A stretch of 64,000 nucleotides of DNA from Parafannyhessea umbonata (GTDB taxonomy: Bacteria; Actinomycetota; Coriobacteriia; Coriobacteriales; Atopobiaceae). Where the stretch lies: NCBI RefSeq assembly GCF_900111255.1, contig NZ_FOGP01000007.1, forward strand, positions 1 to 64,000. Direction: 5' to 3'. The first letter of the stretch is position 1, and each line of letters opens with the position of its first letter. Shown here in pieces: positions 10,011 to 30,915 of the stretch. The position numbers and the translations under genes are program-made. The notes beneath the pieces are model-generated. The model was not told the DNA's origin and made no database searches. It saw only the letters and a list, made by a program, of their open reading frames with translations.

Positions 10011-10152
10011 AGCGTTCGCCAAGCCTAAGCTCACGCAGACGGAAAACGGTGCTGTGCATTCGCGACAATAGCGATATGGTATCTACCTGTGGGCTGAGCC
10101 CATGAACTGTTTTCCGGATTGGCGGGCGACCGCCATCGAAGGGGGAGCGTAC

Positions 10153-10833
10153 ATGAAGTTCTTTATCGACACCGCCGACCTCGACGAGATTCGCGAGGCA
10201 GCAAGCTGGGGCGTCCTCTCTGGCGTTACCACCAACCCGAGCCTCTATGCCAAGACTGGCGGCAAGCTTGCGGACTTCGAGGACCACATGGTCAAGATCT
10301 GCAGCATCTGCGAGGGGCTGCCCGTCTCCGCCGAGTCCACCGCGGAGACCACCGAGGAGATGATCGCCGAGGGCAAGCGCCTTGCCTCGCTGGCCCCGAA
10401 CATCGTCGTCAAGCTCCCCATCTGCGAGGCGTCGCTGCCCGCGACCCACGCCCTTGCGGCGGAGGGCATTCGCGTCAACATGACGCTCGTCTTCTCGGCG
10501 CCCCAGGCGCTTCTCGCCGCGCGCGCCGGCGCCCGCTACATCTCTCCCTTCGTCGGCCGCTTTGATGACATTGGAGACGACGGCTTGGCCCAGCTCGAGA
10601 CCGTCATCAACGCGGTCCAGAACTTTGACTATGGCTACTGGGACGAGGAGGGCGGCCCCGAGATCATCACGGCGTCCGTCCGCACCCCGAACCACGTCAC
10701 GCAGGCCGCCCTCATGGGCGCCGACATCGCCACGGTTCCGTTCGCGGCGCTCAAGAAGTGCGTGCACCACCCGCTGACCGACCAGGGCCTTGTCAAGTTT
10801 GCGGCCGACTGGAAGAAGGTTGTTGAGGGCTAG
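10153..10833 (+). CDS. tal: Transaldolase (MipB/TalC-like)
   Basis: A 226-residue small-type transaldolase of the non-oxidative pentose phosphate pathway. The N-terminus FFIDTADLDEIREA and GVTTNPSLYAK are diagnostic; the Schiff-base lysine is in NIVVKLPICEA. At the position where E. coli fructose-6-phosphate aldolase has Tyr131 this protein has Phe (YISPFVGRFDD), as in true transaldolases, which favours transaldolase over F6P aldolase activity. I chose ATG 10153, preceded by GGGGGAG, over an upstream in-frame ATG. Its last 63 codons plus terminator are repeated perfectly at 30652-30915, beyond the microcompartment island. Confidence 0.93.
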   Translation: MKFFIDTADLDEIREAASWGVLSGVTTNPSLYAKTGGKLADFEDHMVKICSICEGLPVSAESTAETTEEMIAEGKRLASLAPNIVVKLPICEASLPATHALAAEGIRVNMTLVFSAPQALLAARAGARYISPFVGRFDDIGDDGLAQLETVINAVQNFDYGYWDEEGGPEIITASVRTPNHVTQAALMGADIATVPFAALKKCVHHPLTDQGLVKFAADWKKVVEG

Positions 10834-15403: not shown

Positions 15404-15703
15404 ATGCGCTATCGCGGAGAGGAGGCCATCGGCCTCATCGAGACCATTGGCATGGTTCCCGCCATCTACGCGGCGGACGCCATGCTCAAGGCGGGCGACA
15501 CCGAGCTCGTCAGCTACGAGAACGTTGGGTCCACGCTCGTCACCATCATCGTCAAGGGCGACGTCGCCGCCTGCGAGGCCGCCGTCAGGGCCGGCAAGGA
15601 GGCTGCCGCCAGCATCGGCAAGCTCACCGCCGCCAATGTCATGAAGCGACCCGTCCCGCCGATCGGCGACGTGGTCTCCGTGCACGACGTCGACTGCAAC
15701 TAG
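15404..15703 (+). CDS. Microcompartment shell protein, BMC-H (first type)
   Basis: A 99-residue single BMC domain (PduA/EutM fold) that forms hexagonal shell tiles. It starts RGEEAIGLIETIGMVPAI and has the pore-loop region YENVGSTLV with a serine at the position of the PduA pore residue. The C-terminal extension VSVHDVDCN is short. AGGGAGGG precedes ATG 15404. It lies 9 bp after the previous gene. Confidence 0.93.
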   Translation: MRYRGEEAIGLIETIGMVPAIYAADAMLKAGDTELVSYENVGSTLVTIIVKGDVAACEAAVRAGKEAAASIGKLTAANVMKRPVPPIGDVVSVHDVDCN

Positions 15704-15716
15704 GGAGGCCAGGACT

Positions 15717-16028
15717 ATGGCAAGCGAGAGCATGAACGCACTTGGCGCTATCGAGACCTTCGGCCTGGTCTGGGTTCTCGAGGCCGGCGACGCCATGTGC
15801 AAGGCCGGTGACGTCGAGCTCATTGGCTACGAGAACACCGCCTCGGGATACATCTCGATTCTCGTCGAGGGCGACGTCGCCGCCTGCAAGGCGGCTGTCG
15901 CGGCCGGCGTGAAGGCCGTCGAGGCGCTGGGCGCCGAGGTCTACAGCTCGGTGGTTATTCCGAGGCCGCACCCGAGCCTCAAGAAGATCACCGACAAGTA
16001 CGACGTCGAGAAGCTTCTGGCCTACTAA
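15717..16028 (+). CDS. Microcompartment shell protein, BMC-H (second type)
   Basis: A 103-residue BMC-H protein (NALGAIETFGLVWVLEAGDA), distinct in sequence from the first and from the triplicated one. Its pore loop reads YENTASGYIS. The tail after VVIPRPHPSLK is longer than in PduA. It is preceded by a GGGAGG-type site and spaced 13 bp from the upstream gene. It is a shell hexamer component by family. Confidence 0.93.
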   Translation: MASESMNALGAIETFGLVWVLEAGDAMCKAGDVELIGYENTASGYISILVEGDVAACKAAVAAGVKAVEALGAEVYSSVVIPRPHPSLKKITDKYDVEKLLAY

Positions 16029-16039
16029 GGAGGCGCCGT

Positions 16040-17560
16040 ATGTCTCTCATCGACAACGACCTCCTCTCGATCCAGGAGGCACGCATCCTCCTGGAGCACG
16101 CGGCCGAGTCCGCGGAGGTCCTCGAGGGGCTGCCGGCATCACTCGTCGACGACTTCCTGTCGCACCTGAAGGAGCGCCTGCTCCCGCTTGCGGGGGCATA
16201 TGCGGAGCAGGCCTTCTCGGAGAGCGACTATTGCTGCGCCGAGGACGAGGCGAGCCTCACCGAATGGGTGCTCACTGACCTGCTCGACGACGTCTGTGCG
16301 CGCACGCCGGTCCAGAAGATCGTGCGCTCGCGCTCCGGCGCCGCGGAGGTCTGCCTGTCCAAGGGCGTGGTGGTGTCGCTGCTTCCCGACTGGCTCGCGG
16401 TCCCCACGATGTTGAGTCAGCTCTTCATGGCGGTGCGCTCCAAGAGCCCGATCGTCTTCTCGGCGAGCGCCCGCATCCACGGCACCTGCGAGCGCGCCAT
16501 GCGTGACATCGCCGAGGTGGCCGAGTTCTGTCACTACCCCCTCGAGGCGCTGGGATTCCTCAGCATCTTCTGTCCCGAGGGAGAGCAGTGGGTCTGTTCG
16601 CAGCCGTGCGTCCACGTGGTGATCGACTCCCGCGAGGAGCAGGAGAGCCACGACTTCGACGCCGCCGGTCGCGACGTCTACCATGCGACCCTCGGCAACA
16701 ACCCCGTCTTCGTCGAGGAGACGGCCGACCTTGCGGCCTGTGCCAAGGAGGTCGTGCTGGGAAAGTCGTTCTGCCATGGCATGCTTCCCGGCGCCGAGCA
16801 GAGCGTGGTCGTCGAGCGTGCGGTCGACGACGCCTTCAAGGAGGAGCTCCGCCGACAGGGGTGCTTCTTCCTTACCGACGAGCAGGCAGACCGGCTCGTG
16901 TCGATCCTCTTCGCGCCCGATGGCTTGCCCTATCGCGAGCTCATCGCGAAGAGCGCCTTCGACCTCGCCCGTCGCGCGGACATCACGGTGCCCGAGAGCA
17001 CCAGGGTGCTCGTGGTCCAAAAGCCCTATGTGAGCGAGTACAGCTTCTTCTCCAAGGCGAAGTATGGACCCGTTCTCTCGTATTACGTCGAGGAAAGCTG
17101 GCGCACGGCCTGCGAGAAGTGCATTGAGCTGATCTTGAACAGCGGTCACGGCAACGCTCTCTCGATCTTCTCGCAGGACCCGGAGGTAATTCGCCAGTTC
17201 ATCCTCAAGAAGCCCGTGGGAAGGGTGCTCGTGAACGTGAGCTGCGCCCTGGGCTGCATCGGATGTCACAGCGACCTGCCCAAGACGCTCACCGTCACGG
17301 GCTGGGACTGCGCGACGACCTCCGAGCTCGGCGTGACCTACGGCGACTTCGTGCGTCGCCGCCAGGTCGGTGTTGGCTCCACGGCCGCGGAGCACGCTCT
17401 TCTCGAGCGCGCGAGCTCCTGCGACCACACGCCGGTCGTCTTCAGGACGAGGATCGCCGATCCCACGGACGAGCCGGAAGACCACGGGTCGGAGGCCCAT
17501 GAGGGCGCCAACCCACAGGGGTGGTTCGACGGCGTGGTCAAGGCAATTCGAAACGATTAA
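16040..17560 (+). CDS. Aldehyde dehydrogenase paralogue lacking the catalytic cysteine
   Basis: A 506-residue protein that aligns along its length with the CoA-acylating aldehyde dehydrogenase at 25226. Where the active enzyme has FDNGTICASEQS, this one reads [12 protein letters not shown], so Pro replaces the nucleophilic Cys. The conserved VPSTNPTST segment is LPDWLAVPT, and GGPGMVKAAY is not conserved. It should therefore not oxidise aldehydes. A polar tail ([13 protein letters not shown]) leads to an amphipathic C-terminal end ([12 protein letters not shown]) that resembles an encapsulation peptide. A structural, chaperone or regulatory role inside the compartment is inferred. Confidence 0.8.
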
Positions 17561-17574
17561 GCGAAGGAGTGAGA

Positions 17575-20118
17575 ATGGACATCAAGGAGTTTGCCAAGGA
17601 ACTCTCCGAGGCAACGAAGAACATGTCCGACGAGCAGCGTGCGACCGTTCGCCAGATGTTCGAGAAGGTCGCAGACCAGCTCGACGCGCCGTGCGCGGCG
17701 CCCGCCGTCCCGCGTGGCGAGGGCGAGCCCTACGATGTGCCCGAGGGACCCACCGACCGCCAGCGCCGCCTGAAGGACAACTTCCTCAAGCAGGTGCCGA
17801 GCATCACCATGCACCGCGCACGCGCGGTTACCGAGATCATGAAGGCCAACCCGGGCATGCCGATGATCGAGCTGCGCGCCAAGGCCTTCCGCCGTTGCTG
17901 CGAGACGGCCCCGCTCGTTATCCAGGACGACGAGCTCGTGGTGGGCGCCCCCTGCGGCGCGCCGCGCGCCGGCGCGTTCTCGCCCGACCTCGCCTGGAGG
18001 TGGCTGCGCGACGAGCTCGACACCATCGGCGAGCGTCCGCAGGACCCCTTCTACATCTCCGAGGAGGACAAGCAGTACTGCCGCGACGTCCTCTTCCCGT
18101 TCTGGGAGGGCAAGTCGCAGGACGAGGTCTGCGAGGACCAGTACCGCGAGGCCGGCGTCTGGGAGCTCTCCGGCGAGTCGTTCGTCTCCGACTGCTCCTA
18201 CCACGCCATGAGCGGCGGCGGAGACTCCAATCCCGGCTATGACGTCATCCTCATGAAGAAGGGCATGCTCGACATCCAGGCCGAGGCGCGCGAGCACCTC
18301 GCCCACCTCGACTACGCCAACCCCGACGACCTCGAGAAGATCTACTTCTACAAGAGCGTGATCGACACCACCGAGGGCGTCATGATCTACGCCAGGCGCA
18401 TGAGCGAGTACGCGGCCCAGCTCGCGTCCTCCTGCCACGACGCCAAGCGCGCCGCCGAGCTCCAGCAGATCTCGCACATCCTCCAGAGCGTACCGGCGCA
18501 CGCGCCGAGCACCTTCTGGGAGGCCGTCCAGTCCGTCTTCGTGATCGAGAGCCTGCTTCCGGTCGAGGAGAACCAGACGGGCATGTCGCTCGGCCGCGTC
18601 GACCAGTACATGTATCCCTTCTACAAGGCTGACATCGAGGCCGGGCGCCTCACTCCCTACCAGGCCTTCGACATCGCGGGCTGCATGCTCATCAAGATGA
18701 GCGAGATGATGTGGGTCACCTCGCGCGGCCAGTCCGAGTTCTTCGCCGGCTACCAGCCCTTCATCAACATGACCCTCGGCGGCGTCACGCGCCAGGGCCA
18801 CGACGCGACCAACGAGCTCACGTACCTCCTGATGGACGCCGTCCGTCACGTCAAGGTCTACCAGCCCACGGTCGCCTGCCGCATCAACAACAAGTCGCCC
18901 GAGAAGTACATGCGCAAGATCGTGGACATCGTCCGCTCCGGCATGGGCTTCCCCGCCTGCCACTTCGACGACACGCACATCAAGATGATGCTCGCCAAGG
19001 GCGTCAGCGTCGAGGACGCCCGCGACTACTGCATGATGGGCTGCGTCGAGCCCCAGAAGTCCGGCCGCCTCTACCAGTGGACCTCGACGTCCTACACGCA
19101 GTGGCCGATCTGCATCGAGCTCACCCTCAACCACGGCGTGCCCCTGTGGTACGGCAAGCAGGTGACCCCCGACCTCGGCGATCCCGCGCAGTACAAGACG
19201 TACGAGGAGTTTGACGAGGCCGTCAAGAAGACCATCTACTTCGTCACCAAGTGGACCGACGTCGCGACGGTCATCTCCCAGCGCGTCGCTCGCGCCGTCG
19301 CCCCCAAGCCCCTCATGTCGATCATGTACGAGGGCTGCATGGAGAGCGGCAAGGACGTCTCCGCCGGTGGAGCCATGTACAACTACGGCCCCGGCGTCGT
19401 CTGGACGGGCCTCGCGACCTACGCCGACTCGATGGCGGCCATCAAGAAGCTCGTCTTCGAGGAGCACAAGTACACCCTCACCGAGATGGCGGATGCCCTC
19501 AAGAGCGACTTCGAGGGTCGCGAGCAGATGCGCAAGGACTGCCTCGATGCGCCCAAGTACGGAAACGACGACGACTACGCCGATTCCATCGCGGCCGACA
19601 TCGTCGACTACACCGAGCGAATCCACGTGGACTTCAAGACGCTCTACTCCCACATGTCCACCGGCACGCTCTCGATCTCCAACAACACGCCCTTCGGCGA
19701 GATGACCGGCGCCACCGCAAACGGCCGCAAGGCCTGGACGCCGCTTTCCGACGGCATCAGCCCCACCCAGGGTGCGGACTTCCGCGGCCCCACCGCGATC
19801 ATCAAGTCGGTCTCCAAGCTCTCCAACGACTCGATGAACATCGGCATGGTCCACAACTTCAAGCTCATGAGCGGCCTGCTCGACACGCCCGAGGGCGAGA
19901 ACGGCCTCATCACGCTGCTGCGCACCGCGTCGATGTTCGGCAACGGCGAGATGCAGTTCAACTACCTCGACAACGAGACGCTCATCGACGCCCAGAAGCA
20001 CCCCGAGAACCACCGCGACCTGGTCGTCCGCGTCGCTGGCTACTCGGCGTTCTTCAACGAGCTCTGCAAGGACGTTCAGGACGAGATCATCAGCCGAACG
20101 ATGCTCGAGAAGTTCTAG
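17575..20118 (+). CDS. cutC: Choline trimethylamine-lyase (glycyl radical enzyme)
   Basis: An 847-residue glycyl radical enzyme that cleaves choline to trimethylamine and acetaldehyde. Compared with the Desulfovibrio enzyme, each active-site residue is present with an offset of one: Tyr209, Asp217 (GGGDSNPGY), Phe396 (GYQPF), Cys490 and Glu492 (GCVEPQ), Thr503 and Tyr507 ([10 protein letters not shown]), and the radical Gly822 (RVAGYSAFF). Propanediol and glycerol dehydratases differ at these choline-contacting positions. The N-terminal helix ([18 protein letters not shown]) is a plausible encapsulation sequence. GAAGGAG lies 7 bp before ATG 17575. It should act inside the shell, and oxygen would destroy the radical form. 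Confidence 0.96.
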
Positions 20119-20188: not shown

Positions 20189-21130
20189 ATGAGCGGCGAG
20201 CAGGCGGTCGAGCGCAAGGTCCGCATCTTCAACCTTCAGAAGTACAACATGTACGACGGGCCCGGCGTGAGGTCGATGGCGTTTCTCAAGGGCTGCCCCC
20301 TGCGCTGCAAGTGGTGCTCCAACCCCGAGAGCCAGCTGCGCGTGCACGAGGTCATGTTCAAGCGCGTCAACTGCGTCGACTGCGGCGCATGCGCCGCGGT
20401 CTGCCCCGTGGGCGTCCACAAGATGGTCGACGGCGAGCACGTGGTCGACAGGGCCGTGTCGTGCATCGGGTGCCGCGGATGCGAGGCGGCCTGTATGAAC
20501 CATGCGCTCGAGGTCATGGGCGACGACCGCACGGTCGACGATGTCGTGGCCTTCCTCGACGAGGACGCCGACTTCTATCGCATGTCGGGCGGTGGCATCA
20601 CACTCTCCGGCGGCGAGGTGCTCGCGCAGGCCGAGGCGACCTACTCGATCCTCATGGCGGCAAAGTCCCGTGGCTACCACACGGCGATCGAGACCTGCGG
20701 CTACGCGAAGACCGAGACGGTCCTCAAGATCGCTCGCTACGTCGACCTCTTCCTGTTCGACATCAAGCAGATGGACCCGGTCAAGCACAAGTTCTGGACC
20801 GGCGTGAACAACGAGCTGATCCTCGCCAACGTGCGCACCCTGCTCGAGAGCGGCCACAACGTCCGCGTGAGGATGCCGCTGCTCAAGGGCGTGAACGATT
20901 CGAAGGACGAGATTGACGCGGTCATCGACTTCTTCAAGCCGTACCGCTACCAGAAGAACTTCGACGGGGTCGACCTCCTGCCGTACCACAAGCTCGGCGT
21001 CGGCAAGTACGCGTCGCTGGGCCGCGACTACCAGATCGAGGGGGACCCGTCGCTCACCGACGACGACCTCGCCCGCATCGAGGGCTGGATCAAGGGCGCC
21101 GACTTCAAGGTCAACCTCGTCAGGCACTAG
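20189..21130 (+). CDS. cutD: Choline TMA-lyase activating enzyme (radical SAM)
   Basis: A 313-residue glycyl-radical activase that abstracts hydrogen from the CutC glycine using S-adenosylmethionine. The radical SAM cluster motif is C36-x3-C40-x2-C43 (GCPLRCKWC). Two ferredoxin-type 4Fe-4S motifs follow: C62/C65/C68/C72 and C92/C95/C98/C102. The SAM-binding GGE motif is in ITLSGGEVLAQ. AAGGAGGGGAGG precedes ATG 20189 by about 8 bp. Its position directly after cutC fixes the partner. Confidence 0.95.
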   Translation: MSGEQAVERKVRIFNLQKYNMYDGPGVRSMAFLKGCPLRCKWCSNPESQLRVHEVMFKRVNCVDCGACAAVCPVGVHKMVDGEHVVDRAVSCIGCRGCEAACMNHALEVMGDDRTVDDVVAFLDEDADFYRMSGGGITLSGGEVLAQAEATYSILMAAKSRGYHTAIETCGYAKTETVLKIARYVDLFLFDIKQMDPVKHKFWTGVNNELILANVRTLLESGHNVRVRMPLLKGVNDSKDEIDAVIDFFKPYRYQKNFDGVDLLPYHKLGVGKYASLGRDYQIEGDPSLTDDDLARIEGWIKGADFKVNLVRH

Positions 21131-22670: not shown

Positions 22671-22968
22671 CATCAGGGTCATCAAGGCGCCCGCGCCAGG
22701 CACCATGCGCGTCATCAGGCAGCGCAGCGGCGCCCGCTGGGATGACGACTTCCGCCCCGCCGCGGTCGGCCTCGTGCAGGGCAAGCTCATCGAGATGCTG
22801 GTCGCGAGCGACGTGGCCGAGAAGAGCGCCAACGTGGTCGTGACCGACATCCGGGGCTCGTGTCCCCAGAACATGGTGCTCCTCGCCATCGCCGGCGAGA
22901 CCGAGAGCGTCATGGAGTGCCTCAGGCGGATTCGAGACGGAAAGGACCAGACCCATGATTGTTGGTAG
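22663..22968 (+). CDS. Divergent BMC-domain protein
   Basis: A 101-residue protein. After a lead of about 30 residues (IRVIKAPAPGTMRVIRQ) it has a BMC-like core (AVGLVQGKLIEMLVASDVA ... CPQNMVLLAIAGE). The usual basic pore loop is replaced by VTDIRGSCPQNM. It is probably a minor shell or shell-associated component. It overlaps both neighbours (8 bp before, 14 bp after), so its dose is coupled to EutJ and the pentamer. Confidence 0.75.
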   Translation: MLDIRVIKAPAPGTMRVIRQRSGARWDDDFRPAAVGLVQGKLIEMLVASDVAEKSANVVVTDIRGSCPQNMVLLAIAGETESVMECLRRIRDGKDQTHDCW

Positions 22969-23224
22969 GCTCATCGGCTCCATCTGGGCCACGCGCAAGT
23001 ACGACGAGCTGAGCGGGATGAAGCTCATGCAGGTCGAGGTCATCACCGGCGACGAGGCCGGGCGCCAGCTCATCTGCGTTGACACCATCAGCGCCGGCGT
23101 GGGCGACCGCGTGATCGTCACCACGGGGGCGTCGGCCTACCTGTTCATGAGGGACGCCTTCGACCAGAACGTCCCGGTCGATGCCGTGATTGTAGGGATC
23201 ATCGACGAAGACGTGAGTCTGTAA
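22955..23224 (+). CDS. eutN: Microcompartment vertex protein, EutN/CcmL type (BMC-P)
   Basis: An 89-residue pentamer-forming protein (MIVGRLIGSIWATRKYDELSG, ending VDAVIVGIIDEDVSL) that caps the twelve vertices of the shell. It is the only BMC-P gene in the locus. The start codon lies inside the preceding gene (14-bp overlap). Confidence 0.95.
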   Translation: MIVGRLIGSIWATRKYDELSGMKLMQVEVITGDEAGRQLICVDTISAGVGDRVIVTTGASAYLFMRDAFDQNVPVDAVIVGIIDEDVSL

Positions 23225-23261
23225 GCAATAAAGCGATTTGTATTTCGGAAAGGAGGACGGC

Positions 23262-24173
23262 ATGAAGAAACTTGTGAGCGCGCAGGACGTGATCGCCGCC
23301 AAGGACGGGCACGAGGACATCTACATCGATGACAACACCATCGTGACCGCCCAGGCCGTCGACCTCGCTCACGAGATGGGCGTGTGCCTGAAGCAGGGCC
23401 CCGCGCCGCACGAGGGCCACGAGGCGTGTGCGGAGCAGCCCCACGCAGAGGCTCATGCATGCCATGACAAGGAGGAGGGCTGCGCGTCTGCGCTGTCCGC
23501 CGAGGAGCTCGAGCGCGTCATCGCGGCCGCTCTCGACAAGGGAATCTGGAGCGAGGGCGACCTTGAGGGCCTGCTGGGCACCAACGGCGCGGCGCAAGTC
23601 GACGCCGACGTCGTTCCCGTGGGCGTCTCTGGCCGCCACATCCACCTCTCGCAGGTGGACCTCGACCAGCTGTTCGGGCCCGACTTCGAGCTGACGCGCA
23701 TCAAGGATCTCAGCCAGCCCGGCCAGTTCGCCGCGAAGGAGTGCGTGACGATCGCCGGCCCCAAGGGCGTGATCGAGAAGGTCCGCGTCCTGGGCCCCGT
23801 GCGATCCCAGACGCAGGTCGAGGTGCTCGCCGGCGATACCTTCAAGCTGGGCGTGCCGCAGAAGGTCCGCCTCTCGGGGCACCTCGAGGGCACGCCAGGC
23901 GTCACGGTCATCGGCCCCAAGGGCAGCGTTTGCCTCCACGAGGGCACGATCGTGGCCGCGCGCCACATCCACATGAACCCCGCGCAGGCCGCCGAGCGCG
24001 GCTTCCATGACGGCCAGGTCGTCTCCATCAAGGCCGACGGCGAGCGCGGCGGCACCCTCGACAACGTGATCGTCCGCGTCACCGAGGGCGGCAACCTCGA
24101 CTGTCACATCGACACCGAGGAGGCCAACGCGCTCCAGGTCAAGAGCGGTTCTACGCTCCGCGTAATCAGGTAA
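23262..24173 (+). CDS. pduL: PduL-type phosphotransacylase with metal-rich N-terminal extension
   Basis: A 303-residue phosphate acyltransferase that converts acetyl-CoA to acetyl-phosphate and recycles CoA inside the shell. The C-terminal 190 residues are the PduL domain with both zinc-binding histidine motifs (SGRHIHLS and ARHIHMN). The N-terminal extension of about 110 residues is unusual: it begins like EutQ/EutT leaders ([15 protein letters not shown]) and contains a His/Cys-rich patch ([19 protein letters not shown]). ATG 23262 follows AGGAGG. The extension may target the enzyme or bind metal. Confidence 0.92.
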
Positions 24174-24216: not shown

Positions 24217-24501
<285 letters not shown>

Positions 24502-24558: not shown

Positions 24559-24843
<285 letters not shown>

Positions 24844-24900: not shown

Positions 24901-25185
<285 letters not shown>

Positions 25186-25225: not shown

Positions 25226-26842
25226 ATGATGCACGAATACGACCGCGACCTCGAGAGCATCCAGGCCGCACGCGACCTCGCGCGCGCCGGCCAGGTTGCC
25301 GCCGAGAAGATCGCAACCTACACCACCGAGCAGATCGACCGTATCCTTCGCTCCATGGTCGAGACTGCCGAGAAGAACGCCAAGCAGCTCGCCGAGATGG
25401 CCGTCGAGGAGACGACCTTCGGCAACGTGCACGACAAGATCTTCAAGAACCACATGGCCTCCGGCCTGCTTTACGAGCAGATCAAGGACGCGAAGACGAT
25501 CGGCGTCATCGACGTGGACGAGAAGAAGCAGACGATCACGATCGCCGAGCCCGTCGGCCTGATCTTGGGCATCGTCCCCTCCACCAACCCGACCTCCACG
25601 GTCCTCTACAAGTCGATGATCGCGCTCAAGGCGCGCAACGCCATCGTCTTCTCGCCGCACCCCAAGGCCGCCAAGTGCACGAACCTTGCCATCAAGCTCA
25701 TGTGCGACGCGGCCGTCGCCGCGGGCGCCCCCGAGAACATCATCCAGGGCGTCAGCCTCGCGACCATCGAGGCCACCAACGCGCTCATGCACGCGCCCGA
25801 GGTCAAGATGATCATCGCCACCGGCGGCCCCGGCATGGTCAAGGCCGCCTACAGCTCGGGCAAGCCCGCGCTGGGCGTCGGCGCCGGCAACTCGCCCTCC
25901 TACATCGAGCGCACCGCCAACGTGCACGACTCCGTCCGCCAGATCATGGCGTCCAAGACCTTCGACAACGGCACCATCTGCGCCTCCGAGCAGAGCGTCA
26001 TCTGCGAGACGTGCAACCACGACGAGGTCGTCGCCGAGTTCAAGCGCCAGGGCGGCTACTTCATGAGCGAGGAGGAGTGCGCCAAGGTCTGCAAGATCCT
26101 GTTCCGCAACGGCCACGCGATGAGCCCGAACTTCGTCGGCCACGACGCCCAGAGCATCGCCCACGCCGCGGGCATCTGCGTTCCCGCCGACACCCGCGTC
26201 CTCATCGGCGAGCAGCACGGCGTCGGTCCCGAGTGGCCGCTCTCCTACGAGAAGCTCACGACCGTGCTCGGTTTCTACACCGTGGCCGACTGGCACGAGG
26301 CGTGCGAGCTCTCCATCGCGCTCCTGCAGAACGGCATCGGCCACACGATGAACATCCACACGCAGGACAAGGAGATCGTCCGCAAGTTCTCCGTCAAGCC
26401 CGCCTCGCGCATCCTCATCAACACGGGTGGCACCCAGGGCGGCACGGGTCTCTCCACCGGTCTCGACGTGGCCCTCACGCTGGGCTGCGGCACCTGGGGC
26501 GGCAGCTCCGTCTCCGAGAACGTGGGCCCGCAGCACCTCGTCAACCTCAAGCGCGTCGCCAACGGCATCGTCGAGCCCGACCAGGTCGCGGCCGCCGACG
26601 CGACGTTCGCGAAGTGGCACCCCGAGCTCGCGGCTGAGTACGGCTGCGCGACGACGCACGAGTGCGCGGGCGCGTGGCACGGGGCCGGCTCCTGCGAGCC
26701 CGCGTCGAGCCCCATCAGCTACTCCGTGGGCTGCTGCTCCGCCCCGGCGCACGAACAGCAGGCGCGCAAGAGCGACACCATCGACGCGGAGGAGCTCCGC
26801 AAGATGGTGAGCGAGCTGGTCTCCGCCTTCCGCGGCGAGTAA
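25226..26842 (+). CDS. cutF: CoA-acylating acetaldehyde dehydrogenase
   Basis: A 538-residue EutE/PduP-type enzyme that converts acetaldehyde, CoA and NAD+ to acetyl-CoA and NADH. The catalytic cysteine is Cys252 in FDNGTICASEQS; VPSTNPTST and GGPGMVKAAY are intact. The C-terminal 60 residues form a Cys/His-containing linker and then an amphipathic helix (AEELRKMVSELVSAFRGE) typical of encapsulation peptides. Either ATG 25226 or ATG 25229 may be used; GGAAAGAGG lies upstream. A 12-bp hairpin follows the gene. Confidence 0.94.
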   Translation: MMHEYDRDLESIQAARDLARAGQVAAEKIATYTTEQIDRILRSMVETAEKNAKQLAEMAVEETTFGNVHDKIFKNHMASGLLYEQIKDAKTIGVIDVDEKKQTITIAEPVGLILGIVPSTNPTSTVLYKSMIALKARNAIVFSPHPKAAKCTNLAIKLMCDAAVAAGAPENIIQGVSLATIEATNALMHAPEVKMIIATGGPGMVKAAYSSGKPALGVGAGNSPSYIERTANVHDSVRQIMASKTFDNGTICASEQSVICETCNHDEVVAEFKRQGGYFMSEEECAKVCKILFRNGHAMSPNFVGHDAQSIAHAAGICVPADTRVLIGEQHGVGPEWPLSYEKLTTVLGFYTVADWHEACELSIALLQNGIGHTMNIHTQDKEIVRKFSVKPASRILINTGGTQGGTGLSTGLDVALTLGCGTWGGSSVSENVGPQHLVNLKRVANGIVEPDQVAAADATFAKWHPELAAEYGCATTHECAGAWHGAGSCEPASSPISYSVGCCSAPAHEQQARKSDTIDAEELRKMVSELVSAFRGE

Positions 26843-30344: not shown

Positions 30345-30528
30345 GCGCCGGCAAGCTTCGGGCCAGCAAAAGCCCAGCTAGAGACAAGGATTTCTGCGGA
30401 TTGGAAGGCCATTCTCGCGCCGTTTCGACCGCGCACGCGTTATGCTCCACTCACGCTGGTCGACGGATCTACGTGCGGGGCGGCGCCTCTCGAGGGAGGT
30501 GTTGCCTATGGAGCAATTCTTCTTGATC
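30345..30528 (+). repeat. Micropeptide module, copy 2
   Basis: The counterpart of 13029-13209: the same leader with TATGCT at 30441, the same ribosome-binding region (GGGAGG) and the same seven starting codons. It sits between eutP and the right 264-bp repeat. Confidence 0.85.
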
Positions 30529-30840
30529 ATGGCGTTTCTGACGGTCCCGTTCGGGCTGCTGAAGGCCGCGATTGGGCTCTATGGCGCCTTGCGCGACCAT
30601 GAGGGCTCGGAAGGCGAGTCGGACGACGGGTCCGCAGACCACGAACTGCCAGAGGAGGGCGGCCCCGAGATCATCACGGCGTCCGTCCGCACCCCGAACC
30701 ACGTCACGCAGGCCGCCCTCATGGGCGCCGACATCGCCACGGTTCCGTTCGCGGCGCTCAAGAAGTGCGTGCACCACCCGCTGACCGACCAGGGCCTTGT
30801 CAAGTTTGCGGCCGACTGGAAGAAGGTTGTTGAGGGCTAG
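30508..30840 (+). CDS. Chimeric frame: micropeptide fused to the transaldolase C-terminus
   Basis: A 110-codon frame. The first 49 or so residues are MEQFF-type ([19 protein letters not shown], one membrane helix, then an acidic tail). The frame then passes in phase into the duplicated tal tail ([14 protein letters not shown] to KKVVEG). It has a good ribosome-binding site. The tal part lacks the active-site lysine region, so no transaldolase activity is possible. It is probably an accident of island insertion; whether it is expressed is unknown. Confidence 0.6.
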
Positions 30841-30915
30841 CTCCTCCAACAGGGAAAACTTGGGCCCCGGGGGGGCGCGGCGATGGCCGCGCCCCTTTTG
30901 CGCTCTGCTTTAAAT
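30652..30915 (+). repeat. 264-bp perfect direct repeat, right copy
   Basis: Identical to 10645-10908, including the tal stop codon and terminator. It ends at CTTTAAAT, just before the ftsE promoter region. It marks the right boundary of the island. Confidence 0.97.
30872..30899 (+). terminator. Duplicated tal terminator
   Basis: The copy of 10865-10892. It would stop read-through from the island into ftsE. Confidence 0.88.

Follow-up and report, generated by a model that had tools for sequence, protein, structure and literature searches.

A second aldehyde dehydrogenase gene in a choline locus

What is the role of an aldehyde dehydrogenase (AldDH) homologue that has lost its catalytic cysteine, in a choline locus that also encodes an intact AldDH? 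The question is raised by ORF 16040-17560 on the forward strand of the window, i.e., the 64,000-nucleotide stretch of Parafannyhessea umbonata DNA analyzed here. This ORF is unbroken (506 codons), starts with ATG behind an AGGAGG-like ribosome-binding site, and its stop codon is followed after 14 bp by the ATG of cutC at 17575, so that the frame and operon position are preserved as an earlier note on this DNA had stated.

The neighbourhood is a type I choline-utilization (GRM1) microcompartment locus. Its genes encode, in order, an EamA-type transporter, two BMC-H proteins, ORF 16040-17560, CutC, CutD, EutJ, BMC-P, a PduL-type phosphotransacylase, three BMC-H proteins, the active AldDH and an iron-type alcohol dehydrogenase, followed by more BMC genes and PduV/EutP. 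Assignment to GRM1 is based on the presence of CutC, CutD and BMC shell genes (PF00936 and PF03319 matches in profile searches), and of another AldDH with an intact catalytic Cys. From the gene order, ORF 16040-17560 is probably cutB; CutB and CutF are both listed as AldDHs (PMC6620236). The main features are as follows.

15404-15703 and 15717-16028 (15404..16028), + strand: two BMC-H shell protein genes, directly upstream of the dead AldDH
16040..17560, + strand: AldDH-fold protein in the cutB position of the GRM1 choline locus, predicted to be catalytically dead (506 aa, Pro250 for the nucleophilic Cys)
17575..20118, + strand: cutC, choline trimethylamine-lyase (TIGR04394, 1624 bits)
20189..21130, + strand: cutD, CutC-activating radical SAM enzyme (TIGR04395, 532 bits)
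22955..24173, + strand: genes of the choline locus for the BMC-P vertex protein (EutN/CcmL) and the PduL-type phosphotransacylase
25226..26842, + strand: active acetylating acetaldehyde dehydrogenase (TIGR02518, 708 bits; Cys252)

Two duplications were also observed in the window. The tandem BMC-H genes at 24217-24501, 24559-24843 and 24901-25185 encode identical 94-aa proteins at a spacing of 342 bp, a recent shell-gene triplication adjoining the active AldDH gene. The C-terminal part (ending in VVEG) of a transaldolase-like ORF (10102-10833) is repeated within 30442-30849 (at 30442-30840), where it is fused to a different start; one copy of this partial duplication lies close to each edge of the choline locus.

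Loss of the active site

The window protein and the 25226-26842 enzyme showed 26% identity over 402 columns in BLASTP (E 5e-40). A 15-residue stretch of the window protein (P0001) aligned without gaps to the stretch of the active enzyme given below (P0002), which places Pro250 (codon CCC) at the position of the nucleophile Cys252:

KTFDNGTICASEQSV

The replacement of the nucleophile by Pro, claimed in the earlier note, was thereby borne out. The same note regarded the conserved VPSTNPTST segment as gone; the motif is indeed lost, though by substitution with LPDWLAVPT rather than by deletion, so that the oxyanion Asn corresponds to Leu119 in the window protein. The degeneration extends further than that note stated. 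The NAD glycine loop, ATGGPGMV in the active enzyme, is DSREEQES in the window protein, and the Glu342 position is occupied by Ala. The window protein scored 22.4 bits against Pfam Aldedh, below the cut-off of 23, and 222.5 bits against TIGR02518, for which the curated cut-off is 620. By score, as well as by Pro250 and Leu119 in place of the nucleophilic Cys and the oxyanion Asn, it therefore falls outside EutE (TIGR02518), while Pro250 agrees with the replacement of Cys by Ser or Pro that characterizes the inactive GRM1 copy. The two altered stretches are located as follows.

16382..16408, + strand: residues 115-123, LPDWLAVPT in place of VPSTNPTST, oxyanion Asn lost
16772..16801, + strand: former catalytic loop, residues 245-254, with Cys245 of the FCHG motif and Pro250

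The dead AldDH across CutC loci

The GTDB genome collection was scanned with CutC as the anchor, which yielded 80 loci. In 78 of these, cutC is immediately preceded by an AldDH gene, which has a fixed position between BMC-H genes and cutC and leaves a gap to cutC of 5-270 bp (mostly < 60). The frame was open in 71 loci (including L076, in which the N-terminus is shortened), cut by a contig end in five, broken in two and absent in two; it was thus open in 71 of the 75 loci in which no contig end truncates it, distributed over Actinomycetota, Bacillota and Thermodesulfobacteriota. Eleven further genomes from the same bacterial family as the window carried intact orthologues with 66-84% identity, all with Pro at the catalytic position, so the substitution is neither chance nor an assembly error.

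Residues were then compared between 86 dead proteins (80 distinct) and 71 active partners. The catalytic position was occupied by Pro (46), Ser (31), Ala (7), Thr (1) or Val (1) in the dead proteins, encoded by TCN, CCN, GCN, ACA and GTG codons, and by Cys in 71/71 active enzymes. Homologues with the normal Cys upstream of cutC were looked for in the other loci and none was found (0/86), in line with the view that loss of the Cys is conserved across CutC loci. The oxyanion Asn was retained in 9/86 dead proteins vs 71/71 active enzymes.

The exceptional loci are described individually. In L062 (9651-9998) and L097 (9355-9966), cutC comes immediately after BMC-H and the dead AldDH gene is missing. 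A search of the L062 genome, a MAG, found the active AldDH (L115) and no dead copy, which indicates that the protein can be absent from a choline locus. In L079 (8554-9787, an Anaerococcus hydrogenalis draft genome) and L112 (8574-9967, a MAG), the dead AldDH gene is split into two ORFs, reflecting either true decay or sequence error. On an Alkalibaculum bacchi MAG contig (L038), CutC (83%) and the dead AldDH group with those of Coriobacteriia, so this contig is likely misbinned or the product of gene transfer.

Origin of the dead family

On a tree rooted with AdhE, with the outgroup reading frames confirmed by BLAST, the dead proteins, including the window protein, formed one clade (SH-aLRT 100). 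Loss of the Cys required one change on this tree, with ten more changes among the remaining states, suggesting a single ancestral loss of the nucleophile. The dead proteins grouped with EutE-type enzymes and Mailhella-type active enzymes (SH-aLRT 93). Branching order within this group was poorly supported, so an origin on the EutE side rests on the joint-group value of 93 and on pairwise identities, and the deep placement should be taken with care because the branches of the dead clade are long. As for identities, the dead protein of Clostridium ragsdalei (L052) was 50% identical to the AldDH of an ethanolamine-type locus in the same genome (L113, whose neighbours we read as EutB, EutC and EutL) and 43% identical to the AldDH of its own choline locus. 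The nearest active relatives sampled are thus EutE-type enzymes and not the usual choline-locus AldDHs. Since the family groups with the EutE side, the window gene did not arise by recent duplication of the active AldDH gene 9 kb downstream; calling it a paralogue, as the earlier note did, is misleading.

In choline loci of Mailhella-type Desulfovibrionaceae, the usual active AldDH is replaced by one from the EutE side that lies nearer to cutC, while the dead protein is still present. Their active AldDH genes are the following.

L067, 14255-15745: Mailhella-type active AldDH
L090, 9065-10540: Mailhella-type active AldDH
L061, 6358-7836: Mailhella-type active AldDH
L110, 6290-7768: Mailhella-type active AldDH

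Selection and the constraint map

In close pairs, dN/dS of the dead AldDH determined by the Nei-Gojobori method was 0.06-0.17 and third-position changes dominated, a clear indication of purifying selection. Both the active AldDH and CutC evolve more slowly than the dead AldDH. The window gene shows neither the stops or frameshifts nor the relaxed selection of a pseudogene. Together with the lack of the Cys in all 86 proteins, these values support the idea of a maintained pseudoenzyme in a microcompartment locus, which the earlier note had put forward.

To map the constraint, per-region entropy in the dead proteins was expressed relative to the active enzymes. The ratio was raised 8.8-fold in the VPSTNPTST loop, 6.3-fold in the NAD loop and 6.9-fold in the Cys loop, as well as 8.2-fold at residues 207-222 and 3.8-fold at 417-437, and was unchanged at 5-29 (1.08) and 371-399 (0.99). 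Six residues, F224, P344, E351, K360, C361 and V393, were invariant in 86/86 dead proteins and different in most active enzymes. The two conserved segments are located as follows.

16052..16126, + strand: residues 5-29 in the N-terminal helix segment, with the same degree of conservation as in the active enzymes
17069..17236, + strand: residues 344-399, the most constrained part of the family, containing invariant P344, E351, K360, C361 and V393

This pattern fits a loss of catalysis in which structural or binding stretches were kept, and does not fit a hidden new active site.

Predicted structure and C-terminal tail

The structure of the window protein was predicted with a pLDDT of 88 and a pTM of 0.85. 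The model matched solved acetylating AldDHs over almost its full length, the closest being 3k9d from Listeria (Z 51.6, rmsd 2.4, 449 residues), which places the protein in the ALDH fold and indicates, at the level of the model, that the overall fold is retained in the dead protein. Beyond this fold lies a tail.

17432..17557, + strand: residues 465-506, a disordered linker (465-491) and an amphipathic C-terminal helix (492-505), encapsulation-peptide-like

The linker was modelled with low confidence and the terminal helix as a helix. Among 67 distinct sequences the helix was more amphipathic than its shuffled versions (mean moment 0.61 vs 0.40). A flexible linker that tethers a short amphipathic helix to the core, as predicted here, is the arrangement expected of encapsulation-peptide cargo. 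The helix is present in most members and absent or doubtful in 10 to 13 of the 80 distinct ones, whose tails are short; any encapsulation via the helix thus cannot be universal.

Role of the dead AldDH

The earlier note offered a scaffold, a cargo adaptor or an allosteric partner of the active enzyme as possible functions. The sequence evidence leans toward the first two, and we moderately favour a structural, non-catalytic role in the choline microcompartment, as cargo or adaptor, for a protein made together with CutC. An EutE-side ancestor would have lost its nucleophilic cysteine once; the resulting protein would be produced along with CutC, packed into the compartment, and there help to hold CutC (with CutD) and other enzymes of the core together at the shell. 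Its binding surfaces would be the N-terminal helix, the 344-399 face and the C-terminal helix rather than the dead pocket. In Clostridium ljungdahlii, choline induces the AldDH gene adjoining the choline lyase gene (log2 7.2, vs 7.9 for the lyase; PMC12016505). Judging from the gene order and from its relative C. ragsdalei, the induced gene probably encodes the dead copy.

A narrower and tentative version makes the protein a dedicated assembly factor that docks CutC/CutD to the shell and core via the three surfaces named above, with the C-terminal one serving as an encapsulation helix. Carboxysomes have non-enzymatic, enzyme-like organisers, and such an assembly factor would be their counterpart in a catabolic compartment.

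Instead, the dead protein might form a hetero-dimer or hetero-tetramer with the active AldDH, as a non-catalytic subunit that regulates, stabilises or localises its partner, a possibility that we take seriously but consider rather doubtful. The two proteins share a fold, microcompartment AldDHs are tetramers (PMC5311937), and dead-plus-live paralogue pairs are known, the prozyme of trypanosome AdoMetDC being a case (PMC6221367). Distances between dead and active proteins also correlate across loci (rank r 0.85); however, the correlation is equally high with PduL and EutJ and thus reflects shared inheritance only. Furthermore, the dead protein is only 26% identical to the active enzyme of its own locus, its gene adjoins cutC and not the active AldDH gene, and the Mailhella-type loci keep it despite an active enzyme of a different lineage, which argues against obligate pairing with one enzyme. 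Evolutionary-rate covariation singled out neither CutC nor any partner, its sign and rank varying with the loci sampled; a strong signal seen at first, which favoured CutC over the active enzyme, was due to Desulfovibrionaceae loci with an active enzyme of another lineage. The evidence weighs a little against a partnership that is obligate with one given active enzyme.

It is unlikely that the dead protein retains a chemistry or ligand of its own, either through other cysteines or by holding CoA or NAD. Cys245 of the FCHG motif is five residues away from the former nucleophile and does not vary within the Coriobacteriia clade, and a further three Cys occur at 402-409 of the window protein. Cys245 was, however, found in 20/86 dead proteins only, from Coriobacteriia and one MAG contig, and is absent in 66/86; being limited to this clade, it cannot be the replacement nucleophile of the family, so that the acylating use of this cysteine envisaged in the earlier note as a refutation of its proposal gains no support from sequence. 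The Cys-rich segment, considered as a metal site, is present in close relatives only. Constraint on the cofactor loops is reduced 6-9 fold, and no common chemistry explains Pro, Ala and Val besides Ser and Thr at the nucleophile position.

Least credible of all, and already contradicted, is a decaying gene kept merely through recency or operon polarity: it would account for the broken ORFs in L079 and L112, the absence from L062 and L097 and the faster evolution relative to the active enzyme and CutC, but not for the low dN/dS, the open frame in 71/75 loci from three phyla or the family-specific invariant residues.

Comparison with known systems

Trimethylamine, which is tied to heart and kidney disease, is produced in the gut by type I choline compartments. 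Their widespread locus keeps a putatively non-catalytic protein under selection.

ALDH16A1 of mammals is a pseudoenzyme of the ALDH superfamily. It resembles the dead AldDH, by description, as a non-catalytic ALDH-fold protein; its loss of catalysis is unrelated, and the organism and context are different. The EutE-type acetylating AldDHs of ethanolamine microcompartments (L113, 3k9d) share the fold with the dead family and are its nearest active sequences, but EutE keeps the Cys, the Asn and the cofactor loops, all of which the dead family has lost.

The closest counterpart is the inactive AldDH of GRM1 loci itself, which is already known. All GRM1 loci with two AldDHs have one copy in which Cys is replaced by Ser or Pro, Olsenella uli is among the GRM1 hosts, and a role of the inactive copy as scaffold or regulator has been proposed, nearly in the words of the earlier note (Axen et al. 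2014, PMC4207490). The second copy was also described as putatively inactive in GRM1A and GRM1B (Sutter et al. 2021, PMC8217296). The window gene shares with these copies the locus type, the identity as second AldDH, the Cys to Pro/Ser replacement and the proposed role, and is a member of this group without essential difference. New relative to the published accounts are the Ala, Thr and Val states, the single origin, the kinship with EutE, the dN/dS values, the constraint map, the terminal helix, and the absence of the protein from some loci and the swap of its active partner in others. With one origin on the EutE side and a constraint that has shifted away from the pocket and onto two other segments, the remark of 2014 becomes testable, and the loci without the dead protein and those with a swapped active partner provide natural cases for such tests.
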